Shown here: one piece after another, positions 52,182 to 63,837 of the stretch
How the letters are laid out: every line of letters starts with the position of its first letter
Numbering within the stretch: position 1 is the first letter of the stretch
The notes under the pieces: generated by a model
The model's input: the letters and a program-made list of their open reading frames with translations, nothing else
What the model was told of the DNA's origin: nothing
The model's database searches: none
Assembly: GCA_009911715.1 (NCBI GenBank)
Contig: CP047880.1
Span: 682,001-746,000 of the forward strand
DNA length: 64,000 nucleotides
DNA from: Methanomassiliicoccaceae archaeon DOK
GTDB taxonomy: Archaea > Thermoplasmatota > Thermoplasmata > Methanomassiliicoccales > Methanomethylophilaceae
Direction of reading: 5' to 3'
Program-made: the position numbers and the translations under genes

Positions 52182-52583
52182 ATGACAACACTGCTGGCAT
52201 ATGATGGCAGACCCAGCTGCAAACGCGCTCTGGACTATGCCATCAGGTATGCTGTCAACTTCAACGAGCCGCTCTACATCCTGACCGTTGTATCCAAGGA
52301 CAAGATGGATCCGGAGGATCCGGACCCCACCGTCCGCGAGTACATGGAGGCAGCCCAGAAGAAGGCGTCCGCAGAGGGCGCCATCGTCCATTCGATCATC
52401 GAGACCGGCAAAGCGGACGAGATGGTTCTCGACGTCGCCGACCGTTTCAACTGCGAAACCATCGTGGTCGGGAGGTCTGACAGGTCGTCTCTGGACAGGC
52501 TGTTCCTGGGCAGCGTGTCGGATTACGTTATCAAGAATGCCGAGTGCACCGTGATCCTGGTCACCGATGGGGACAGGGACTGA
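52182..52583 (+). CDS. Universal stress protein (UspA family)
   Basis: A 133-residue single-domain Usp. It starts TTLLAYDGRPSCKRALDYA (conserved Asp near the start) and ends with the ATP-binding pattern G-R-S-D-R-S-S-L-D-R-L-F-L-G-S-V-S plus ILV strand, so it probably binds ATP. The leaderless start is about 25 bases after ATGTTTATAGCC. It may act in starvation or stress survival; the partner is unknown. Confidence 0.9.
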   Translation: MTTLLAYDGRPSCKRALDYAIRYAVNFNEPLYILTVVSKDKMDPEDPDPTVREYMEAAQKKASAEGAIVHSIIETGKADEMVLDVADRFNCETIVVGRSDRSSLDRLFLGSVSDYVIKNAECTVILVTDGDRD

Positions 52584-52589
52584 GTCGGA

Positions 52590-53348
52590 TCACCTTGACG
52601 CGGTGAAGAAGAATCTCTCATACCTCATCAGAATCCTCCCGTCCGATGCGGGCTTGTACGCCGCCTCCAGACGTTGAAGGATCTCGTTCTTGAGCCTGTT
52701 CCCTTCGGACTCATCCAGGGCATCCAGGTACGGTCTCAGGTGGGTACCGCTTTTCCATTCCACGAGTTCCACGTGGGACTTCAGGGCATGGTAGTACGTC
52801 GTAGTCCACATCTCGAAAGAGTCCGAGCATCCGGCAAGGATCCTGTAGTAGTCATCCGGGGAGAGTGTTCCGTGCCTGCGTGGCTTCCCCTCGGAGTAGT
52901 GCCACACCGGCAGAGAGGCCACCTCCTCGCATATGATCGAAACGGGTTCTGTATCGTTCATGGGGATCTGCACCGCCAGCGTCCCGTGTTATTCGAGACG
53001 TCCCATCAGCCATGGGATCAGAGTGTCATGGTCGTCGATCCATTGTATGCAGGAGTTAGAGAAGATCAGGTCGTAGCCCCCGGGGATCCCCCGGGCATCC
53101 ATCACCTCGAACGTGACGTCCGGGAGCCTCTCCCGGGCCTGTGACACCATCTCCGGGGAGCTGTCGATCCCCAGTATCTCCGCATCAGGGAATGCCCTGC
53201 GGAGCACCTCCGTACTGTTGCCGGGCCCGCAGCCGATGTCGATGACCGAACGCGGCCTCAGTCCTGATATGCGGGAGACGAGGTCGATGGCGGGCAAAGT
53301 GCGCTCACGGTCGAAGCGGGTGTAGTCCGAGGGACTCCAGGAGAACAT
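52590..53348 (-). pseudogene. tam: Trans-aconitate methyltransferase-like gene broken by a stop
   Basis: Two frames in the same register make one Tam-like SAM methyltransferase. The N-terminal part (WSPSDYTRFDRERTLPAIDL, then VIDIGCGPGNST, the SAM motif I) ends at a TAA (52989-52991). The C-terminal part resumes at once (HGTLAVQIPMNDTEP) and runs to MRYERFFFTAS. One base change (a sense codon to TAA) explains it. A GTG at 52973 could start the second half, but a lone C-terminal half has no SAM site. It is either a true pseudogene or a sequencing error; TAA is not a recoded codon. Confidence 0.75.
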
Positions 53349-53366: not shown

Positions 53367-53382
53367 GGGGCCCGAAGGCCCC
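53367..53382 (-). terminator. Terminator of the Hsp70 operon
   Basis: GGGGCC-CGAA-GGCCCC, followed on the minus strand by ACCCTTCCTTTTACTTTC. It closes the five-gene chaperone operon. Confidence 0.7.
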
Positions 53383-53390
53383 TTGTGAAA

Positions 53391-54968
53391 TCAGTTGGCG
53401 TTGCTGACCTTCTCCATCAGTCCCTGGGACTTGGCGATGGCGTCGGCGGACATCTTCAGGTCGTTCTCGATCTGGTAGTCCGTGTGCTGGTCCATGCAGT
53501 CCACGGAGGCGATCAGGATACCCTCGTCGGTGGCCGTGAACTTCACGGTGATGGGGGTGTTCTTGGTCACATCCATCGGAAGCTCCATCATGAACTCTCC
53601 GACGGGGGCTCCGTCGATGACGGCGGTCTTCTTGCCCTCCTCGTCGTTCATGGCAGCATCCTCGTAGATCTCGACCTTGATGGTGGACTGTCCGTCATCG
53701 ACCGGGTAGTAGGTCTTGATGGACTCGATGGGCAGGACCTCGTTCCTGAAGATGATGTTGGAGATCATCTCGGTTCCGTCCTCGTACATGGCCTTGATTC
53801 CGAAGGTCTTGCTCAGGACGTTGTGGACGCTGAGGACTCCCTCGATGGGCTCGGCGGGGGCCCCGGTCTCCGGGTTCACGGGTGTGCCCTCGGGGATCAT
53901 GGAGTTGGACTTGGCGAACAGGGCCGCTCCCTTGGCGACGGACTGGTCGGGGTCGAACACCTTGATGTCGGCGTCGGGGTATTTCGCGGAGATGGCGTTC
54001 TTGACCTGGGGCATCCTGGAGGAACCTCCGACGAGGATGACCTCGTCGATGTCTCCCATGGAGAAGCTCTTGGATGCGAGCACGCGGTCGATGATCTCGA
54101 TGGTCGTCTGGATCAGACCCGCGGATGCGGCCTCGAACTCGTCCCTGGTGATGGTGAACACGATCTTCTGTCCCTCTACGGTCAGGGTTCCCTTGGTGGA
54201 CTCGGCTGTGGAGAGCCTCTTCTTGATGGTCTCGGAGTCGTTGACGAGGGTCTGTTTGATGTCCTCGTCCTCGTCGAGGGTCTCGATGTCGATTCCGGAC
54301 TCCTCGGCGACCTTCTCCTTGATGATCTTCGAGATCACGGCGTCCCAGTCCTTTCCTCCCAGGAGCCTCTCTCCGTCGGTGGCGACGGCGGTGAACGAGG
54401 ATCCGTCGATCTCGAGGATGGTGACATCGAAGGTTCCTCCTCCGAGGTCGTAGACCAGGACCCTCTTCTTCCCGTCGGCGGCGTTTCCGAATCCGAAGGA
54501 GATCGCGGCCGCGGTGGGCTCGTTGATGACGGTGACGTCGTCGAGACCGGCGATGGTTCCGGCGGTCTTGGTGGCATCCCTCTCGTTCTGTCCGAAGTAG
54601 GCGGGGCATGTGATGACGGCTTTCTTGACATCGCAGCCGTGGTTCTCGTTGAAGTCGTTGATCATCTTCCTGAGGATGACCGCGGAGAGCATGATGGGGT
54701 TGTACTTCTCCCCGTCGATGTCCACCTCGTAGTCGGTTCCCATCTGCCTCTTGATGGAGGTGATGATCCTCTCGGGGGGATACATCATGGCCATGTCCTT
54801 CGCCGGGGATCCGACGATGATCTCTCCGTTCTCGTTGAAGAGGATGACGGACGGTGTTGTGTCTTCCTGTTCGAAGTTTTTCTCAACAACCGGGTCCCCA
54901 TCCTCGTCGATATAGGCAAGGCACGAGTAGGTCGTACCGAGGTCGATACCGATGCAGTAGTCTGTCAT
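53391..54968 (-). CDS. Hsp70-family protein without lid
   Basis: A 525-residue Hsp70. The nucleotide-binding domain (residues 1-345) has IGIDLGTTYSCLAY, VYDLGGGTFDVTI and ILVGGSSRMPQ; the beta substrate-binding part follows to about residue 500, and the helical lid is nearly absent (ends EKVSNAN). It differs clearly from canonical DnaK. It is the last gene of the operon; the ATG overlaps the GrpE-like stop. Together with that GrpE-like factor it may form a dedicated chaperone pair for the proteins encoded upstream. Confidence 0.88.
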   Translation of the reverse strand: MTDYCIGIDLGTTYSCLAYIDEDGDPVVEKNFEQEDTTPSVILFNENGEIIVGSPAKDMAMMYPPERIITSIKRQMGTDYEVDIDGEKYNPIMLSAVILRKMINDFNENHGCDVKKAVITCPAYFGQNERDATKTAGTIAGLDDVTVINEPTAAAISFGFGNAADGKKRVLVYDLGGGTFDVTILEIDGSSFTAVATDGERLLGGKDWDAVISKIIKEKVAEESGIDIETLDEDEDIKQTLVNDSETIKKRLSTAESTKGTLTVEGQKIVFTITRDEFEAASAGLIQTTIEIIDRVLASKSFSMGDIDEVILVGGSSRMPQVKNAISAKYPDADIKVFDPDQSVAKGAALFAKSNSMIPEGTPVNPETGAPAEPIEGVLSVHNVLSKTFGIKAMYEDGTEMISNIIFRNEVLPIESIKTYYPVDDGQSTIKVEIYEDAAMNDEEGKKTAVIDGAPVGEFMMELPMDVTKNTPITVKFTATDEGILIASVDCMDQHTDYQIENDLKMSADAIAKSQGLMEKVSNAN

Positions 54969-55774
54969 TCTTCTTCCTCCTTGCTGTTTTCAGCCTTGTT
55001 GTCCGCCTCTTCGTTTCCGGCGGGTTCCGAAACCGTTTCGGAAGGTGTTTCTGAAGACGTTTCCTCGGGCGCAGCCAGCTTGGCGTCGTACTTGAAGACC
55101 TTGACCTTCTCCTTGAGGAGGACCTTGTCCCCGATCTTGTACCCGTCCGAGAGCCTCTCGGCGATCATGCCGTCCTTGTCCGCCTCGCCGGTCGGCACGA
55201 CGCCGACGATGCGATGGTGGAGCGTGTTGAGCCTGTCGTATGGGAAGGCGCCGATGAACACGCCCCCGTCCGTTAGGATGTTCTCCATGTCGACGCTGTA
55301 GGCCTCGAAGCTGGAGAGCACCGTCTCGGCACTCATCTCGTCTATGCGCTCCCTCATTCCCTGGCAGAGCTTGAAGAAGTCCTCCCTCATCACTGAGACG
55401 GCCTCCATCGCGTTCACCAGGGCCTTGTATCCCGCTTCGGCGTCGCGTTTGGACACGGCCGCCGTCACGGATTTGAACTGTTCCCTTGTGGTCATGTACT
55501 GGGACATGTCCGGCATGGCCGGCTCGCTGTCCCTCAGGTCCTCAACGAGGTACCTGATCCTGATCAGCTCGGTCTCCAGGTCCTTCATGGAGGTCCTTAT
55601 GTCGAAGTCGTCCTCGGGGAGCTCCCTCGGGCTTCTGTCTTCGACCTCGTAGTCCTCCGTGTCGTCGGTGACCTCGTCGATCCTCTCCTCTCCGGACCCC
55701 TCGTCGGGGTCCTCGCGCTCCTCCTTGGGCTGGAACCCGTTGATGAGGAAGTTCTTCAGCTTGTTCTCGTCCAT
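54965..55774 (-). CDS. GrpE-like nucleotide exchange factor, divergent
   Basis: A 269-residue protein. Acidic, disordered N-terminus (DEGSGEERIDEVTDDTEDYE), a long helical middle (residues 65-165) and a beta-head that resembles GrpE: HHRIVGVVPTGEADKDG, then LSDGYKIGDKVLLKEKVKV, the place where GrpE contacts Hsp70. A Glu/Lys-rich tail follows. It overlaps the Hsp70 gene by 4 bases and the GTPase gene by 1. The call rests on the C-terminal motif and the neighbour; overall similarity to GrpE is weak. Confidence 0.72.
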   Translation of the reverse strand: MDENKLKNFLINGFQPKEEREDPDEGSGEERIDEVTDDTEDYEVEDRSPRELPEDDFDIRTSMKDLETELIRIRYLVEDLRDSEPAMPDMSQYMTTREQFKSVTAAVSKRDAEAGYKALVNAMEAVSVMREDFFKLCQGMRERIDEMSAETVLSSFEAYSVDMENILTDGGVFIGAFPYDRLNTLHHRIVGVVPTGEADKDGMIAERLSDGYKIGDKVLLKEKVKVFKYDAKLAAPEETSSETPSETVSEPAGNEEADNKAENSKEEEE

Positions 55775-57036
55775 CACTGTCCCTCCCTGTTGAGGAGCCA
55801 GATGAATGGGTCCTCCACCCTCATCGGTGACACTCCCCTCGGCAGGCTGCTGCCGGTGGGGTTGCACCCGAGGGCGGACACGGCGAAGTAGCAGTGCTCC
55901 CTGAACCCGTTCACTATCTGGATGAAGTTGTCCCCGAGGCATCTGCGCAGGTACTCCTCGAGCTCGGCGTCGATCTGGTCGAAGTTCTCCTTGTCGAACT
56001 TGCCGTGCTTGCGGGGGATGTGCAGGGCGGAGCTGGGTCCGAAGAGGACCTTGTCCTCCTCCTCGTTCTCGGGCGCCTTGAAGAGCACGTCGCTCTTGGT
56101 CAGACACACGGCCAGCGGTATGTCGATCCTCTCCTTCGCCTTCAGCTTCTTGTTGGTGCGGATGATCTGGCATATGTTGTTCAGTATGTCGGATTCGTCC
56201 GGGCCGACCGGGGGCTTGTTGTCGACGTGGATCCTCTGGTTGATGTAGCGCACCTGCAGCGGGTCCACGAGGTAGACTATCCCCGCGGCGTTGGAGATGA
56301 ACGAGTTGAGGCTCAGCGCCATCATCCTGTCGGTGGAGGTGAGGTCCTCCCCGGCGGTGTCGAAGAAGGCGAAGGTGAAGACCTTGGGCTCCTTGGCGTC
56401 GAACATCCTCAGATAGTAGATCAACGGCTCCCTCCCCTCGTCCGACACGTCGAAGGACCTGGTCGGTGGGAGCTTGCGCTTCTCCTCGAAGAGCCTGCGG
56501 TAGTACATGTCCCTGTACTTCAGGGTCGTGTTGTCGGTGGCGGCGTTCAGGACGCCGTTGAACTCCTTGGACACGAAGTTCTTGAGCTGGTTGATCAGGA
56601 CCGCGATGTAGTGGCTCTTGCCCACCCCCTTCGGGCCGAGGATGACGAAGATCTTGTTGCCCTCGTCCTCCGCTCCGGGCGGGATCAGGTTGTGGCACAC
56701 CGGGCAGACCCTGGTGTACACGGGCCTCCTGCAGACGTCGCACAGTCCCGAGGAGTTGCGTATGATGTGCTGCTTCGCGATGACGGCGTTGGGGCTGTTG
56801 GGGTCCTTGCCGTAGAACAGGCTCTTCTCCGGGTCGATCTCGTTCTGGCCGTCCCTGGAGACGTACTTCATGAGCTCGGCGTTCCTGGTGCTCGCGACCG
56901 TGGACGCGAAGGTCTTCGCGCAGGTCTGACCGGAGCACAGGTAGTGCACGTTGGCCATGTCGATCCTGGCGAAGCAGTACGGGCAGATGTACTCCTTGCC
57001 CGACGGCGTCACGGTCTCCTTCTGCTTTCTCATCAT
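55774..57036 (-). CDS. P-loop GTPase with N-terminal zinc ribbons
   Basis: A 420-residue protein. CxxC pairs at the N-terminus (CPYCFARI, CDVCRR, CPVCHN) make zinc ribbons across residues 15-115. A GTPase domain follows: G1 GPKGVGKSHY, G3 FFDTAGEDLTS, G4 CLTKSDVL. It resembles the double-GTPase families described in bacterial conflict and signalling operons, though only one GTPase core is obvious here. Possible targets are the Hsp70 proteins or a membrane complex. The start (Met 1 or 2) is 1 base after the next gene's stop. Confidence 0.78.
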   Translation of the reverse strand: MMRKQKETVTPSGKEYICPYCFARIDMANVHYLCSGQTCAKTFASTVASTRNAELMKYVSRDGQNEIDPEKSLFYGKDPNSPNAVIAKQHIIRNSSGLCDVCRRPVYTRVCPVCHNLIPPGAEDEGNKIFVILGPKGVGKSHYIAVLINQLKNFVSKEFNGVLNAATDNTTLKYRDMYYRRLFEEKRKLPPTRSFDVSDEGREPLIYYLRMFDAKEPKVFTFAFFDTAGEDLTSTDRMMALSLNSFISNAAGIVYLVDPLQVRYINQRIHVDNKPPVGPDESDILNNICQIIRTNKKLKAKERIDIPLAVCLTKSDVLFKAPENEEEDKVLFGPSSALHIPRKHGKFDKENFDQIDAELEEYLRRCLGDNFIQIVNGFREHCYFAVSALGCNPTGSSLPRGVSPMRVEDPFIWLLNREGQ

Positions 57037-57037
57037 G

Positions 57038-60031
57038 TCAGCTCCTCCCGTAGAGCGGGTGTATGAACCTGAACAGGTTGTAGTCCGCGTCGTTCTCGAA
57101 GAACAGCCTCATCCTGGAGACGTCCTCCAGGTTCTTGCACTGGACGGTGAGGCTGCCCTTACCCTGGACGATGGCCACTGGGTTGTGGGACCTCCATATG
57201 ACCTCCCCGTCGCTCCTCTTGAGCGGGATCCCCACGGCCACCTGCACCGCGATTATGGGCGGTATCTCGGTCACGTCGGGGTCGGTGGAGAACTCCATCC
57301 TCATGCCGCCCCTCTCGGCCTTGACGGTGTACCTGACCTTCCTGCATTCGGCGGAGTAGACGTCCACCACTATGCCGCGGGAGGCGATCATCTCGTCGTT
57401 GACCTTGTAGAGCGCGAAGATGTTGATGCACTTCTTGGCGGAGTGCCCCATGGGGATACGGATCTGCTTCTCGTCCATGTACTCCTCGCGCCTGACTGTC
57501 TTGATCTCTGCGTCGATGTCGTCGAGTCCGCGGGCCTCCCCGTTGGAGATGACCAGCTTCGCCTCCACGGCGTCGTCGGGCCAGGCCATGGTGATTATGC
57601 AGTCCTTGTTGCTGATTGTCTTCTCGACATCCCTGAAGGGCTTGAGGTTGGCGACCAGCATCTCCGTCCCCTTGATACCCACCTTGCCGCGGGGGATGAT
57701 GGGGTAGATGTACTGCACGGAGCCGTCCGGGAGCGAGAAGCGCATACCGTCGGAGTACTCCATGATGGGCTCTATGGGCTTCATCCAGGACACGATGTCG
57801 TCCATCTTGACCATGTTGCCCGGGATGGTGATCTTCTTCGGCGTGTAGAACAGCTTGACCGGTTCGGTGGTCCCCCACTTCGCTGTGTAGGTGCCGTCGG
57901 CCTTGTTCCACTTGATCTTCATGTCCTTGACGGGCTTTGGCGCGTCTACGGTGGTGCCGCTGAACACGACGCCCTGCGACCTCTCGACCTTGTTCCTGCC
58001 CTCGTACTCGGCGACGAACAGGTAGTGGTACTTCCTGCCGCCCACGAGCCCCATGTCGTCGTAGACGGTCTGGCCGTTCAGGGCGATCTCGGTGCCGATG
58101 CCGCTCCCGGTGCCGTCGGTCCTCCAGAGGCGGACTCTGGTGGCGCCGCGCGGCTTCTCGTACATAATGCGCAGTCCGCCGTCGATGGGCTCGAGGGTCA
58201 CGGCGTCGACCTCGGAGATGGTCATTACCGGGCCGATGTGGGCGCCCTCCTTGGAGAGGATGCCCCAGCGCTTGGAGTATATGGAGTAGTAGTACTCCAC
58301 CCCGGGCTCCAGGGTCTTGTCCACGTACACTGTGCCGGGGATCTCCGCCAGCGGGCGGGTCTCCTCGGTGATCTTCGGCAGGGAGTTCTTCTCCCTGTAG
58401 ATGCAGTAGGTGATCCCCGACGCGTCCGGCGGGGCCTCGAACTTGATGGTGAACGACCTGTCCCCGAGCTTGCCTATGGCGTCCGCGGGCCCCAGCGGGG
58501 GGTCGTCCCTCAGCTTGGCCTTGGCGACGGGGTGGTCGGGGCAGATCTCCACGGCCGCGACGTACAGGGCCATCTTCTGTGATTTGCTGTCCGCGACGGC
58601 CGCCTTCTGGCAGTACATCTCCGCAGCCTTGTGGCGCGTGACGCAGTCGCCGTACTTCTGCTTCAGCTCCAGGTCGTCGGCGAGGGCGTCGGGGAACTGG
58701 TCCACCATGCTCTCGCAGGCGGCCTTGGCCTCTGCGAACTTGCCCTTGTTGTACGAGTCCAGGATGAGCTTCCTCATCGTGGACAGGTTGGTCTTGGCCT
58801 TCTGGAGCTCCAGGTCCATGCCGGCGATGCCGTTGAACCCCGAGTAGACGTCCTTGAGCTGCGTGAGGGACTTCTCGGCCTTGCCGATCTTCCCCTTCTG
58901 CATGTTCATGCGGAAGTCCAGGGCGAGCCTGTTGGCCTTCTCCATCCCCTCCTTGAAGTTGAACCCGCACTTTATGCAGATCACGTTCTTGGACTGCTGC
59001 GCGGTGCCGCAGGCGGGACAGACGGTCTTGAAGTTCTTGCCGCATGAGGGGCAGAACACGGTGTTCGGACCCGCCTGGACCATGAGGCCGCACTCCGGGC
59101 AGCGGATCATGGTCGACTCGGCGTCCGAGAAGTTGGCCGCGATCTTCTTCTTGTGGCAGAAGGACTGCAGGATCTGGATGGCCATCTTGGAGTCGATGTC
59201 CTTGGTCAGGTGGGCGTTCATCAGCTCGTCGATGTACTTCCTGGTGAGCTGCGTGGTGTACTCCTGCTCGATGGTCTCCATGACGGGGACCAGGGCGCGG
59301 TTGCACTTCCCGTAGGCTATGAGTGTCGCCAGCTCCTTGTCCGGCTCCAGGACGAGCTTCACGCTCCTCATGCTCTGGATGTAGGAGTCCTGCTCGGGCA
59401 GAACGTCCGGGCGGACGCTGTTGACCCTCTTGTCGCAGACATCGAACGCGGACCTGATCTGGGAGTACGAGCTGCCCTCGGTGAGAGGGTCGATGTTGAT
59501 CTCGAGGTTGGGGTGGCCGATGAGCGTGTTGAGCATCTCGATCGGCGTGTAGACGTCGACCGCCCTGAGTCCCTTGTAGGCGTTGAGCACCTTGTCGCTG
59601 GCGGGCTTGGGGGGATTTCCCTCCTTGATGCCGGCGAGCTTGAGGACGTCGCTCTTGGTCACGCCCTCCCAGTGGAGCTTCTTGGTGTAGCTGTCCGCCG
59701 CGCCGGGGAGGGCTATGTAGGAGCCGTCGCTGAGGATGATGCAGTCCATCCTCAGCTTCTGGACCTTGCCCTTGAGGATGCTCTGGGCGTCGCTGAACTC
59801 CTTCCTCTTCAGGACGGGGTCCTTCATGACCCTCTCCATGTCGGAGGTCATCTCGACCAGGCGCTCGGACTTGAAGCGCTGCTCGGTGTCGTTCTGCTTG
59901 TTCCTGCTGTCGTTGGCCCATTTGCCCCTCTTGGTGTCGATCTTCTTGAGGATGGCCTCGGTGCTGTAGGTGGACTCCTTCAGAGGGTTGAGTCCCAGCA
60001 GCTGACAGTAGTTCTGTCTCTTCTCTGCCAT
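57038..60031 (-). CDS. 997-residue J-like, zinc-ribbon and FN3-like protein
   Basis: A large multidomain protein. Residues 1-75 (YCQLLGLNPLKESTYSTEAI, then MKDPVLKRKEF) have the spacing of a J-domain but lack the HPD tripeptide that stimulates Hsp70. Residues 315-380 hold three CxxC zinc ribbons (CPECG, CPSCG, CPACG, CIKCG). Residues 385-530 are helical. From about 540 to the end are at least four beta repeats like fibronectin type III (ITYCIYREKNSLP, then RVRLWRTDG). It is probably a scaffold linking Hsp70 to the GTPase. No signal peptide or membrane segment is visible. Confidence 0.75.
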   Translation of the reverse strand: MAEKRQNYCQLLGLNPLKESTYSTEAILKKIDTKRGKWANDSRNKQNDTEQRFKSERLVEMTSDMERVMKDPVLKRKEFSDAQSILKGKVQKLRMDCIILSDGSYIALPGAADSYTKKLHWEGVTKSDVLKLAGIKEGNPPKPASDKVLNAYKGLRAVDVYTPIEMLNTLIGHPNLEINIDPLTEGSSYSQIRSAFDVCDKRVNSVRPDVLPEQDSYIQSMRSVKLVLEPDKELATLIAYGKCNRALVPVMETIEQEYTTQLTRKYIDELMNAHLTKDIDSKMAIQILQSFCHKKKIAANFSDAESTMIRCPECGLMVQAGPNTVFCPSCGKNFKTVCPACGTAQQSKNVICIKCGFNFKEGMEKANRLALDFRMNMQKGKIGKAEKSLTQLKDVYSGFNGIAGMDLELQKAKTNLSTMRKLILDSYNKGKFAEAKAACESMVDQFPDALADDLELKQKYGDCVTRHKAAEMYCQKAAVADSKSQKMALYVAAVEICPDHPVAKAKLRDDPPLGPADAIGKLGDRSFTIKFEAPPDASGITYCIYREKNSLPKITEETRPLAEIPGTVYVDKTLEPGVEYYYSIYSKRWGILSKEGAHIGPVMTISEVDAVTLEPIDGGLRIMYEKPRGATRVRLWRTDGTGSGIGTEIALNGQTVYDDMGLVGGRKYHYLFVAEYEGRNKVERSQGVVFSGTTVDAPKPVKDMKIKWNKADGTYTAKWGTTEPVKLFYTPKKITIPGNMVKMDDIVSWMKPIEPIMEYSDGMRFSLPDGSVQYIYPIIPRGKVGIKGTEMLVANLKPFRDVEKTISNKDCIITMAWPDDAVEAKLVISNGEARGLDDIDAEIKTVRREEYMDEKQIRIPMGHSAKKCINIFALYKVNDEMIASRGIVVDVYSAECRKVRYTVKAERGGMRMEFSTDPDVTEIPPIIAVQVAVGIPLKRSDGEVIWRSHNPVAIVQGKGSLTVQCKNLEDVSRMRLFFENDADYNLFRFIHPLYGRS

Positions 60032-60044
60032 GTGACGTCCTCAA

Positions 60045-62108
60045 TCACTCGTGCTCGGAGAGGTTGGTGCGTCCGGGTCCGCCCTCCCTGACGGAGAGTC
60101 CCATGTTGCCGGACGTGATCGCGGTCGCGATGGTTCCGAACGTGTCGCCGAGCCTGTCGATGGTTGTGAACAGGGCGCCGTCGTCGACGGTGGCGATCTG
60201 CCTGAGGAACGATGTGTCGGCCTCGCCGAGACCGACCGCGATGATCGTGATGTTGTCGGACCTGCATCCCATGGCCTGCTCGACAGCCTTGTCCCTCTTG
60301 CCCCAGATTCCGTCGGTCAGCACGACGATGATGCCGACTCCGGGCCTGGCGAGCATGCTGCGGGCGACGTCGAGCGGGCTGGCGTCCGTTCCCCTTCCGA
60401 CCATCTTGACCTTGAGGTCGTCGATGGAACCGAGGATCGTGCGCGGGTCGTTGCTGAGCTCCTGGACGACCTTGATCTTGTCGCCGAAACCGATGAGGGC
60501 GAAGTAGGTGTCCCTGTCCTGCAGGGTGTTGACGAAGTCGCGGATGGACTGCTTGGCGGCCTCGATGGGCTCGCCGTCCATGCTCCTGGACAGGTCGACG
60601 CAGATCGCGATGTTCTTGAGGATGGCCTCGTCGCTGGGTCTGTCCCTCGGGCTTCCGCCCATCCACCTGATGTCCTCGGGCACGGGCTGCGCCTCCACCT
60701 GGAGGGGCTCCCCGTCCTGGAAGGCGGTGATGTTGACGACCCCGTTCTCGTCGTAGTTGTACTCGATGTCGACGATGACTCCCTGGCCCCTGTTGTAGAA
60801 GCCGGAGATGACGACCTTGGCGAGGACGTTGCAGTCGAGGGGCACCCTGGACTCGCCCTGGAGGGTGAAGACCTCGATCTTGTCCGTGACGTTGCCCTTC
60901 TTGATGGTGAACTGCCTGCGGACGGTGCAGGGGACCTTGGAGTTCCTCTTGATCATGATCTCGTTGACGAACTTCTTCCCGTCCTGGCTGACGGAGAGGA
61001 TCCCGAGGCTGTGGGCGGTGACGTCGGCGATCTGCATGGCCCTGAGGCCGGTGGCGTTGCTGCAGTAGAGCTCCGCCGTGATGGCGGCTCCCTTGGCGAC
61101 CGCGAGGTCGGTGTCGCTGTGTGCGATGACCTCCCTGCCGGTGAGGTCCTTGAGGAACCTGGCGACGGACGGCATCCTGGTGGATCCGCCCACGAGCAGG
61201 ATCTCGTCGATGTCGGTCCAGGACATTCCGAGGTCCTGGATCAGGTCGACGCAGACGTCCTTGGTGGCCACGAGGAGATGCTCGGTCATGGACTCGAACT
61301 CGTCCCTGGTCAGGGTGTACTTTGCGCTGTAGCCGTCGTAGTTCAGGGGGATCGTGACGCTCTCGGCGATGGACAGCGTCTTCTTGTATCCCTCCGCGGC
61401 GACGATGAGCTCGTTCTTTGTGGGGAGGTCGTCCCTGGGGTCCACGTCGAACTCGTCGATGAACTGGTCGCAGACGTATTTGACGATGGCAGCGTCCCAG
61501 TCCTTCCCTCCGAGGATGTGGTTCCCCTCGGTTCCGACGACCTCGATGTTCCCCTTGCTGATCCTGACTATGGTGACGTCGAAGGTTCCTCCTCCCAGGT
61601 CGTAGACCATGACGGTCTTGTCGGAGGAGTGCTTGTACCCGTACGAGATCGCGGCCGCGGTGGGCTCGTTGATGATCTTCGGGACCTTGACGCCGCAGGA
61701 CTCGCCGGCGCGGATGGTGGCGGTCCTCTGGAAGTCGTTGAAGTAGGCGGGGACCGTGATGACTGCCTCGTCGATCTTCTCGCCGGTGGCCTTCTCGGCA
61801 TCGGCGATGAGGTGCTTGAGGAGCATGGCGCTCAGGTCCTCGGAGGTGTAGTCCTTTCCGTTGAAGCTGACCGCGATGGATCCGTCTCCCATGTTCCTCT
61901 TGAAAGCCGCGGCATTGACTCCGGTTCCGTTGGACTGCATGTCCTTGGCGTCCTCGCCCACGAGAATGTCGCCGTCGTCGAGGAAGCATATCACAGAGGG
62001 GGTGATCTCCTTTCCGAAGGCGTTGGGAATCATAATCGGTTTGTTGGAGTTTCTGTCATATCTTGCAACTGCAGAGTACGTTGTTCCGAGGTCTATTCCA
62101 ACCTTCAT
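60045..62108 (-). CDS. Hsp70 fused to a VWA domain
   Basis: A 687-residue fusion. Residues 1-480 are a typical Hsp70 (KVGIDLGTTYSAVARY, VYDLGGGTFDVTIV, ILLVGGSTRMP, then the beta substrate-binding part with LGILSVSQDG). From about residue 500 a VWA domain follows with a full MIDAS metal site: DLSRS, the Thr in GRGTDAS, and VLTDG. The lid helix is replaced by the VWA, so the chaperone may present clients through VWA contacts. MKVGIDLG is the start; the frame extension of 19 residues covers the promoter. It leads the operon and its start lies under palindromic operators. Confidence 0.9.
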   Translation of the reverse strand: MKVGIDLGTTYSAVARYDRNSNKPIMIPNAFGKEITPSVICFLDDGDILVGEDAKDMQSNGTGVNAAAFKRNMGDGSIAVSFNGKDYTSEDLSAMLLKHLIADAEKATGEKIDEAVITVPAYFNDFQRTATIRAGESCGVKVPKIINEPTAAAISYGYKHSSDKTVMVYDLGGGTFDVTIVRISKGNIEVVGTEGNHILGGKDWDAAIVKYVCDQFIDEFDVDPRDDLPTKNELIVAAEGYKKTLSIAESVTIPLNYDGYSAKYTLTRDEFESMTEHLLVATKDVCVDLIQDLGMSWTDIDEILLVGGSTRMPSVARFLKDLTGREVIAHSDTDLAVAKGAAITAELYCSNATGLRAMQIADVTAHSLGILSVSQDGKKFVNEIMIKRNSKVPCTVRRQFTIKKGNVTDKIEVFTLQGESRVPLDCNVLAKVVISGFYNRGQGVIVDIEYNYDENGVVNITAFQDGEPLQVEAQPVPEDIRWMGGSPRDRPSDEAILKNIAICVDLSRSMDGEPIEAAKQSIRDFVNTLQDRDTYFALIGFGDKIKVVQELSNDPRTILGSIDDLKVKMVGRGTDASPLDVARSMLARPGVGIIVVLTDGIWGKRDKAVEQAMGCRSDNITIIAVGLGEADTSFLRQIATVDDGALFTTIDRLGDTFGTIATAITSGNMGLSVREGGPGRTNLSEHE

Positions 62109-62113
62109 TTCCC

Positions 62114-62246
62114 ATCGAATTTCGTAAACGCATATTAATATAAAAACATCAAGACGCAGTGACACTTTGTCCTACGAAATTCGTAGCAGATATAACACTG
62201 GCACCTAAACTAATTTCACGGGTCAGGTCGGATACGAATGTCGTAG
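62114..62246. promoter_or_regulatory. Three TACGAA-TTCGTA operators before the chaperone operon
   Basis: Site A at 62114-62127 (ATCGAATTTCGTAA) lies between TATA and ATG, site B at 62172-62186 (CTACGAAATTCGTAG) is a perfect 7-base-arm palindrome, and site C at 62232-62246 (ATACGAATGTCGTAG) is a near match. Centres are about 59 bases apart, roughly six helical turns. The TATA-like TTTTATATTAATATG lies between A and B. Confidence 0.7.
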
Positions 62247-62255
62247 GCGCCGGCG

Positions 62256-62615
62256 TCATCCCTCCTCGCCCACATGTTCCAGGGCCGTCTCGAGGACCGT
62301 CTTCACGTGGTCGTCGCAAAGTGAGTAGTAGATGGACCTCCCCTCCCTGCGCGAGGTCACGAGGTGGGCGTCCCTAAGCATCCTGAGCTGATGTGAGACC
62401 GCCGACATGGACATACCCAGGGTCTCGCTGATGTCGCACACGCACATCTCCCCGGCGTCTAGTGCCAGCATTATTTTCACCCTGGTGCCGTCCCCGAAGA
62501 TCTTGAAGAAGTCGGCAAGCTGTTCGACCGTCTCGGGGTCGGGCATGAATCCGCTGGCTCTCTCGACAGCGTCCTTGTGCACCTCATGTGCCTGGCATAC
62601 GAGTTCCTCGTCCAT
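62256..62615 (-). CDS. ArsR/SmtB-family regulator
   Basis: A 119-residue winged-helix regulator: FKIFGDGTRVKIMLAL, the recognition helix in MSMSAVSHQLRMLRDA, and the wing VTSRREGRSIYYSL. The metal-sensing motif in helix 3 is present as EMCVCDI (C-x-C), so it may respond to a soft metal or to thiol oxidation. It is cotranscribed with the small membrane gene upstream (1-base gap). The palindrome before that gene (62845) and those before the Hsp70 operon make it the prime candidate regulator of both. Confidence 0.92.
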   Translation of the reverse strand: MDEELVCQAHEVHKDAVERASGFMPDPETVEQLADFFKIFGDGTRVKIMLALDAGEMCVCDISETLGMSMSAVSHQLRMLRDAHLVTSRREGRSIYYSLCDDHVKTVLETALEHVGEEG

Positions 62616-62616
62616 C

Positions 62617-62799
62617 TCAGCTCTGCCCCTTCATGCGGAAGAACATGATGACCATCACTATGACGGCGATCAGGGCAACCACGCCGGCGACGGCCCCGAT
62701 GACCGCGATGTGCTCTGGGACGAGAACCACTGCGAAGGACAGGATGATGAGAATCGTGGCGAGAATCGCCGCGGCTGTGACCAAAGGTCCCTTCGTCAT
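62617..62799 (-). CDS. 60-residue two-span membrane protein
   Basis: Two hydrophobic segments (ILATILIILSFAVVLV and IAVIGAVAGVVALIAVIV) with a short loop and a basic tail (FFRMKGQS). It is a small gene in front of the ArsR gene with a 1-base gap. The function is unknown; it might sense or export the ArsR effector, but nothing in the sequence shows this. Confidence 0.65.
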   Translation of the reverse strand: MTKGPLVTAAAILATILIILSFAVVLVPEHIAVIGAVAGVVALIAVIVMVIMFFRMKGQS

Positions 62800-62907: not shown

Positions 62908-63837
62908 ATGACGGATCCCGCGGAGCTCTGCGACAGGGCTGTTAGATTGTACCCCACCGACCCGGAGGCGGCTTACGACCTCTTCGTCGAGGCCGCCCAG
63001 CAGGGCTTCCCCAACGCCTTCTTCGGACTGGCGGAGATGAAGATGTCCGGCGTAGGCACGGAGCGCGACCCCGAAGGGGCACTAGAACTCTACACAGCGG
63101 CTGCGGAGGCCGGTCATCCGCCGTCGATGTACCGTCTTGGCGCCTACTACAGCGGAGCCGCCGGGGCGGGGGAGGACCCCGAGAAGTGCAGGTTCTGGTT
63201 CGAGAGGGCGGCCAACGCCGGGATGGCGCAGGCCTATCCGGAGATCGCGGGGATATACCTCTACGGCTACGGCACCCCTCAGGACACCGTCAAGGCTTTC
63301 CACTGGTACAGCAAGGCGGCCGAGGCGGGAGACCCCCTGTCGATGTTCAAGGTCGGGTACATGCGCTCCGAGGGTGTGGGTGCCGAGAAGGACATGGACG
63401 AGGCGGTCAGGATGTTCAGGATGTCGGCGGTCGCCGGGGTCCCTGAGGCGATGTTCAAGATGGCCACCCTGGCGAGGGACGGTGTCGTCCCGGGCGGCGC
63501 GAAGGCGGCTCTGTCATGGTACCGTTCCGCGTCAGACGCGGGGTTCATGCCGGCCACGTTCAACATGGCCACGATGTACTACGAGGGCGAGGGGACCGGC
63601 AAGGACCTGGAGAAGGCGTTCGAGCTCTACAGCAGGGTCGCCGACACGGGGGACGGCGACGCGCTGTTCATGGTCGGCAGGATGTACTTCGAGGGTCTAG
63701 GGGTGGAGAAGGATCAGGTAAGGGGTTTCGAGTTCTTCGGGAGGGCGGCGGCTGCCGGCAACAGGATCGCCCAGGAGTTCGTCGAGGACATCCGTCGCAG
63801 GCAGAACACGCAGCTCATCCACATAGACGGGAGCTGA
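62908..63837 (+). CDS. Sel1-repeat protein, 309 residues
   Basis: About seven Sel1-like repeats (YDLFVEAAQQGFPNAFFGLA, ALELYTAAAEAGHPPSMYRL and so on). There is no signal peptide. Same family as the 606-residue protein at 33 kb, shorter and more divergent. It is divergent from the ArsR operon, 108 bases apart. ATG 62908 follows a weak TATA-like CTCATATCG; a frame extension covers the ArsR promoter. It probably scaffolds protein contacts. Confidence 0.88.
   Translation: MTDPAELCDRAVRLYPTDPEAAYDLFVEAAQQGFPNAFFGLAEMKMSGVGTERDPEGALELYTAAAEAGHPPSMYRLGAYYSGAAGAGEDPEKCRFWFERAANAGMAQAYPEIAGIYLYGYGTPQDTVKAFHWYSKAAEAGDPLSMFKVGYMRSEGVGAEKDMDEAVRMFRMSAVAGVPEAMFKMATLARDGVVPGGAKAALSWYRSASDAGFMPATFNMATMYYEGEGTGKDLEKAFELYSRVADTGDGDALFMVGRMYFEGLGVEKDQVRGFEFFGRAAAAGNRIAQEFVEDIRRRQNTQLIHIDGS

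Follow-up and report, generated by a model that had tools for sequence, protein, structure and literature searches.

The 64-kb window analysed here comes from the archaeal genome of Methanomassiliicoccaceae archaeon DOK (1.89 Mb, single contig) and contains, between positions 53391 and 62108, an operon of five genes in which two Hsp70 proteins enclose a J-like protein, a GTPase and a GrpE-like factor. Comparison of the sequences indicates that this operon is a real, stripped-down archaeal variant of a predicted bacterial system. GTPase-centric systems with DO-GTPases and GAP1 were defined by Kaur et al. (2020; PMC7159879). Their Hsp70 theme comprises an Hsp70, a GrpE, a second Hsp70 and a protein with fibronectin type III (FNIII) domains fused to a DnaJ or TPR part, is found mainly in actinobacteria and firmicutes and is interpreted, like the systems as a whole, as serving biological conflict. 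No functional study of DO-GTPase/GAP1 systems was found in the literature searched, and the defining work is a computational prediction. Our overall reading, which we hold to be probable though far from secure, is that the Hsp70 theme gave rise to the window operon, an archaeal derivative without GAP1 that would act as a GTPase-controlled, membrane-linked chaperone machine for specific clients. The genes, their domains and order, the absence of GAP1, the presence of a second, transmembrane (TM)-anchored GTPase in the genome and the bacterial kinship are documented below from sequence data. Positions are those of the 64-kb window unless prefixed by a locus (L) or genome (G) label, G000 being the window genome; "window-type" denotes GAP1-less operon copies like that of the window and "GAP1-type" the paralogous copies with GAP1.

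The five proteins and the HPD-Arg contact

The operon is encoded on the minus strand, its five genes overlapping or nearly touching in the order Hsp70-VWA, J-like, GTPase, GrpE-like and Hsp70, with gaps from 5′ to 3′ of +13, +1, −1 and −4 nt; the coordinates agree with the genes, order and spacing given in a first-pass annotation of this DNA. The first gene (60045 to 62108, ATG at 62108, 687 aa) encodes a fusion of a nucleotide-binding domain, a beta substrate-binding domain and a VWA domain at the lid position. Pfam assigns it 370 bits for HSP70 and 62.9 bits for VWA (cut-off 23.8). The HSP70 match ends at profile position 488 of 599, before the helical lid, and the VWA domain follows directly (residues 498 to 646). 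In the alignment, its metal ion-dependent adhesion site (MIDAS) motif, DxSxS...T...D, is intact (DLSRS, GRGTD, LTDG), as are the actin-like ATPase motifs DLGTT, EPTAA and DLGGGTFD, and the beta substrate-binding domain was recognised by Pfam, alignment and Foldseek. The AlphaFold2 model of the fusion has a mean predicted local distance difference test (pLDDT) of 85 and matches DnaK/BiP in the PDB by Foldseek. The last gene of the operon (53391 to 54968, 525 aa) encodes the second Hsp70 (314 bits), whose HSP70 match ends at profile position 515 of 599, so that the helical lid is missing except for its start; thus the Pfam profile found a full lid in neither Hsp70. Overlapping this gene is that of the GrpE-like protein (54965 to 55774, 269 aa), a predicted nucleotide exchange factor that falls narrowly within the GrpE family, with 26.6 bits against a cut-off of 25.8 for PF01025 over profile positions 32 to 164 of 165, covering the coiled coil and the beta domain; its bacterial counterpart scores 33.6 bits.

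The GTPase encoded in the middle of the operon (55774 to 57036, 420 aa) belongs to DO-GTPase2 (PF19993, 34.0 bits against a cut-off of 27). Its Walker A (GPKGVGKS), Walker B (DTAGED, of the Walker B-Glu type) and G4-like (TKSD, that is TKxD) motifs are intact in the alignment, and they are preceded by N-terminal zinc ribbons with conserved Cys pairs; Pfam gave no McrB match, and so no AAA+ GTPase of that type, among the operon proteins. The profile searches and alignments thus bear out four of the proteins as the first-pass annotation had described them, namely an Hsp70 fused to a VWA domain with an intact MIDAS, a lid-less Hsp70, a zinc-ribbon GTPase and, by the narrow margin given above, a GrpE-like factor.

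The fifth protein (57038 to 60031, 997 aa) had been described as J-like without the His-Pro-Asp (HPD) motif, and here the absence of HPD held, in all archaeal orthologs examined, whereas the J-likeness turned out to be weak. Pfam detected no DnaJ match in it, only weak zinc ribbons, and when hhalign was used to align its profile with three canonical J domains, the match was in register but reached a probability of only 31% (P 5e-4). In the AlphaFold2 model, an N-terminal helical hairpin of J-like pattern (helices 24–43 and 49–70) is followed by a further helical region, zinc ribbons, TPR-like helices (359–507) and tandem beta sandwiches that run to the C-terminus. The mean pLDDT is 85.5 and the predicted template modelling score (pTM) is 0.38, and therefore the arrangement of the domains is not reliable. 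The beta sandwiches match FNIII domains (top Foldseek match 1fnf, E 7e-12). Hypervariability of this part was considered as a sign of an arms race and rejected, as the FNIII part is as conserved as the rest of the protein, or more so.

In canonical systems, R167 of DnaK is the residue toward which HPD is positioned, and the R167H substitution suppresses DnaJ D35N (PMC7289447). The equivalent residue is Arg in the canonical DnaKs compared here. In the archaeal Hsp70-VWA class, in which a few canonical DnaKs with Arg are counted, 41 of 57 sequences have Lys; among the lid-less Hsp70s, 44 of 51 have Thr. As regards two bacterial Hsp70-VWA proteins introduced below, that of L208 keeps Arg and that of L213 does not. 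With HPD absent and this position changed, the archaeal machine departs from the canonical one on either side of the HPD-Arg contact, which suggests that the classical J-domain trigger has been lost or replaced.

General chaperones are encoded separately. A canonical grpE-dnaK-dnaJ cluster is present at about 1.76 Mb of the genome (G000:C1), where a full-length DnaK (C1:1762291-1764021) is accompanied by an adjacent GrpE and by an HPD-bearing DnaJ. Because of this cluster, the proposal that the operon encodes chaperones of its own, apart from the general heat-shock set, is supported.

Conservation, descent and the second GTPase

Relatives of Hsp70-VWA, some complete and some fragmentary, were found in 31 of 31 congeneric genomes searched, and the named archaeal relatives belong to the family Methanomethylophilaceae of the Methanomassiliicoccales. 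The five-gene order is fixed, far beyond chance, in the window's own genus and in the intact window-type orthologs of four further genera of the family (g4, g19, g20 and g21). The neighbourhood survey therefore did not find the genes scattered in relatives, an outcome that had been named beforehand as refuting the reading as a chaperone machine. A match of the GrpE-like protein to an unrelated family, named as a further refuting outcome, did not occur either, since its profile match is to GrpE. An independent collection of 46 named archaeal loci has the same order wherever the contig is long enough, except in GAP1-type loci. Within Methanomethylophilaceae the operon is patchy, and searches of other families of the order did not reveal it; DO-GTPase matches in other Thermoplasmatota families (L086 to L091) were rejected as the same operon, their neighbourhoods being different.

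GAP1-N2 was detected by Pfam in none of the five operon proteins and is absent from the window genome. It is likewise absent from 41 of 45 Methanomethylophilaceae genomes, and the remaining four carry it inside paralogous operons. In such operons of the same genus (L056, L058, L059, L061 and L062), GAP1 is found alongside genes for the same GTPase, for Hsp70-VWA and for the J-like protein, with PF20013 scores of 65 bits in L058 and 44 in L061. In a tree of Hsp70-VWA, the GAP1-less copies form one clade apart from the GAP1-bearing ones with a support of 100/99; the bacterial rows are long branches, and their own branching order is unsure. Most simply, GAP1 would have been lost once, after which the operon was inherited for the most part vertically.

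In bacteria, the fusion is rare. Of 39 genomes searched in the phylum to which L169 belongs, one carries an operon of seven genes (L208) for GrpE, Hsp70, Hsp70-VWA, J/FNIII protein, zinc-ribbon GTPase, GAP1 and TM-GTPase; of 398 searched in that of Paenibacillus, two contain the fusion (L213 nearly complete, L214 partial). Because of these three loci, the Hsp70-VWA fusion, rare as it is, is not restricted to archaea. When plasmids were searched for the fusion, all matches were to ordinary Hsp70s and fell short of 80% coverage of the query. Judged from these comparisons, the window operon is a GAP1-less derivative of bacterial Hsp70-theme GAP1-N2/DO-GTPase systems. At one locus (L063, G006:C94) the operon takes a fourth form, which is very divergent and has the Sel1-repeat gene directly upstream and co-directional; the contig ends inside the GrpE gene. 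Two loci from genera of the family that yielded no such operon (L068 and L069) have an Hsp70 about 32–34% identical to the lid-less one beside Sel1-repeat genes, an arrangement that hints at an older Hsp70-Sel1 link.

A second DO-GTPase gene is present in the window genome at G000:C1:1235197-1236717 (= L116:9198-10718). Its product scores 31.8 bits with PF19993 and has three hydrophobic segments and zinc ribbons. This TM-GTPase was found in 17 of 17 genomes of the same genus in that search (the window genome included), in g4, in g21 and in one g19 genome, and in several g4 and g21 genomes it lies only a few kb from the operon. Two TM-GTPase genes stand in tandem at L117:8664-11458, and several congeners with GAP1-type operons have four to six copies.

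Flanking genes and the upstream region

The first-pass annotation had assigned the five genes one shared promoter and terminator. A likely archaeal promoter, the TATA-like tract TTTTTATATTAATAT, was found at 62146-62132 on the minus strand. The possible terminator, a hairpin (GGGGCC-TTCG-GGCCCC, 53367 to 53382, minus strand) followed by a T-rich tract after the last stop, proved to be only ordinary, with a folding energy of −16.3 kcal/mol and z = −1.4. Further upstream lie two perfect copies of the palindrome TACGANNNTCGTA, site 2 at 62173 to 62185, 77 nt upstream of the ATG, and site 1 at 62233 to 62245, 60 nt from site 2; a degenerate third copy with two mismatches stands beside the start codon at 62114 to 62126, 59 nt from site 2. 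Nearly all window-type operons have one to three copies upstream, mostly 59–61 nt apart, where shuffled sequences lead one to expect about 0.1 sites per region at two mismatches; none was found upstream of GAP1-type operons. Six exact copies occur at four places in the window genome, the other places being ahead of the genes for RNase III (divergent from apt), for a PAS protein and for malic enzyme (L215:6171-6262, L216:6505, L217:6533). A palindrome regulon was rejected as a clue to function, as these neighbouring genes are incoherent. Just upstream of the operon, a gene on the minus strand (62256 to 62615) encodes an ArsR/SmtB-family regulator (NF033788, 101.8 bits against a cut-off of 55), which is kept in only part of the relatives. 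It was dropped as a candidate regulator of the operon, the gene being undetected near several loci that keep the palindrome.

Two further genes are linked to the operon. A Sel1-repeat protein is encoded on the plus strand at 62908 to 63837 (PF08238, 180 bits in 7 stretches). Its gene adjoins the operon in nearly every congener, mostly divergently and elsewhere co-directionally and first in line, and lies several kb away in some genera. Conserved between this gene and the operon is a probably unannotated 60-aa membrane protein (62617 to 62799, minus strand, start MTKGPLV), which recurs, with the start MxKGPLV, in at least 15 loci, the window counted. The operon had been called self-contained, and this description is not supported: these two genes are tightly linked to it, and the bacterial versions also include GAP1, absent from this genome, and a TM-GTPase, here encoded elsewhere. 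The Sel1 gene, the 60-aa open reading frame, the promoter palindromes and the unlinked TM-GTPase had all been overlooked in the earlier reading.

On the other side, a universal stress protein gene (52182-52583, plus strand) converges on the end of the operon, as in most window-type congeners. A methyltransferase-like gene just downstream of the operon (52590-53348, minus strand) is interrupted by a TAA stop at codon 120 and has an intact relative in L037 (989-1747). Read-through of this stop by pyrrolysine was rejected, as the codon is TAA and not TAG. A region resembling methanol methyltransferase mtaB/mtaC occupies 48–52 kb of the window.

Proposed working and comparison with known systems

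From these features we infer a complex, a GTP switch and a client role. The zinc-ribbon DO-GTPase of the operon would pair with the unlinked TM-anchored DO-GTPase as a GTP-dependent switch at the membrane, and the J-like/zinc-ribbon/TPR/FNIII protein would be the scaffold that gathers clients and partners. Hsp70-VWA would grip clients through its beta domain, with the metal-binding VWA domain, which replaces the lid, as a second grip, and the nucleotide cycle would be governed by GrpE together with the lid-less Hsp70. Since neither partner keeps its usual half of the HPD-Arg contact, the classical trigger of ATP hydrolysis is probably not in use, and the GTPase may provide that control. A more specific version, in which Hsp70 is gated by the GTPase, with the J trigger dismantled on both sides, the VWA domain as a stand-in for the lid and the GTP switch controlling client capture, is a tentative suggestion that we would not expect to hold in full. 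Its likely task would be to handle proteins of the envelope or linked to the membrane, and not to defend the cell. We favour this on an argument from absence and ancestry, because there are no effectors and no PADLOC match, synteny is stable, the system occurs in every congener searched and the FNIII part is not hypervariable.

Several observations weigh against this picture. The TM-GTPase is unlinked to the operon in the window genome and is absent from g20 and part of g19 despite the operon, so that it is usual and not obligatory, and the proposed membrane location rests on partners outside the operon. In g20 the GrpE gene is missing from the operon. "J-like" is a weak lead, membership of the J-domain family not being established. 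Finally, the palindrome points to a putative regulator of wider reach, because it also lies near unrelated genes (RNase III/apt, malic enzyme, PAS protein).

One rival is a conflict system, anti-viral or self-sacrificing, in which an invader would be sensed by the FNIII protein, the GTPase would act as the switch and a large effector complex would be built by the Hsp70s. It draws on homology to systems so interpreted (Kaur et al., 2020; PMC7159879) and fits the coming and going of GAP1-bearing paralogous operons within the genus. Nevertheless, no effector gene lies in or beside the window operon, the PADLOC models gave no meaningful match to the five operon proteins, Hsp70-VWA is present in every congener searched with conserved flanks, the FNIII part is at least as conserved as the rest and the fusion was not found on plasmids, so we regard it as unlikely. 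The earlier suggestion that the GTPase and VWA parts recall conflict operons thus stands as regards descent from the GTPase-centric conflict systems of Kaur et al. (PMC7159879), but no conflict role is indicated here. To about the same low degree we would credit a dedicated assembly factor for one partner, such as the Sel1-repeat protein or an envelope complex, with the VWA domain as a client-specific grip, as in the MoxR-VWA pairs that mature specific enzymes. The persistent linkage of the Sel1 and small membrane protein genes and the intact MIDAS speak for it, yet linkage is not interaction, and in the window the Sel1 gene is transcribed away from the operon, while in some genera several kb separate the two. 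Less probable still, the operon would encode accessory heat-shock proteins, with a duplicated Hsp70/J/GrpE team serving general protein folding during stress and the GTPase being a bystander. Hsp70, GrpE and a J-like protein do share one operon, and a universal stress protein gene adjoins it in many relatives, but HPD is absent, the R167 position is altered, both Hsp70s are without a lid and the GTPase is mid-operon in all window-type relatives and co-occurs with the set in bacteria. As a minimal, stable and effector-free form in a gut methanogen family, the operon sets the core chaperone-GTPase function apart from a supposed role in conflict and makes it testable with five proteins. It is also a natural case of Hsp70s that seemingly do without the HPD-Arg contact and have a VWA domain where the lid would be.

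Among known systems, the Hsp70-theme GAP1-N2 systems are the closest in composition. They share with the window operon a zinc-ribbon DO-GTPase, two Hsp70s, a GrpE and an FNIII protein that includes a J-like or TPR part, and also a second, TM-anchored GTPase, which in the window genome is unlinked. Unlike them, the window operon has no GAP1 and no variable effector genes, is stable and not mobile, and is linked to the Sel1 and small membrane protein genes. Its second Hsp70, unlike theirs, keeps the beta peptide-binding domain, and the Hsp70-VWA fusion is unmentioned in the passages of PMC7159879 consulted. The Firmicutes tubulin-theme GAP1-N2 loci (Paenibacillus/Bacillus, L171-L202), in which tubulins were placed by Kaur et al. 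(PMC7159879), have, like the window operon, a VWA protein encoded ahead of a zinc-ribbon DO-GTPase, the latter showing about 30% identity along its whole length, and in several of them a short open reading frame between the two matches the FNIII end of the J-like model. Here, unlike in the window operon, VWA is a separate protein, and Hsp70 models found no Hsp70 domain in the neighbourhoods examined. With canonical DnaK-DnaJ-GrpE the window operon has in common the Hsp70 ATPase motifs, the beta substrate-binding domain and the GrpE family, and differs in having VWA instead of the lid, no HPD, a changed R167 position and a GTPase. CoCoNuT, or McrBC-Hsp70, systems (PMC11090510) also combine a GTPase and Hsp70-like proteins in one operon; there the GTPase is an AAA+ McrB and the Hsp70 is described as degenerate, whereas the window operon encodes a DO-GTPase2 and Hsp70s with intact motifs.

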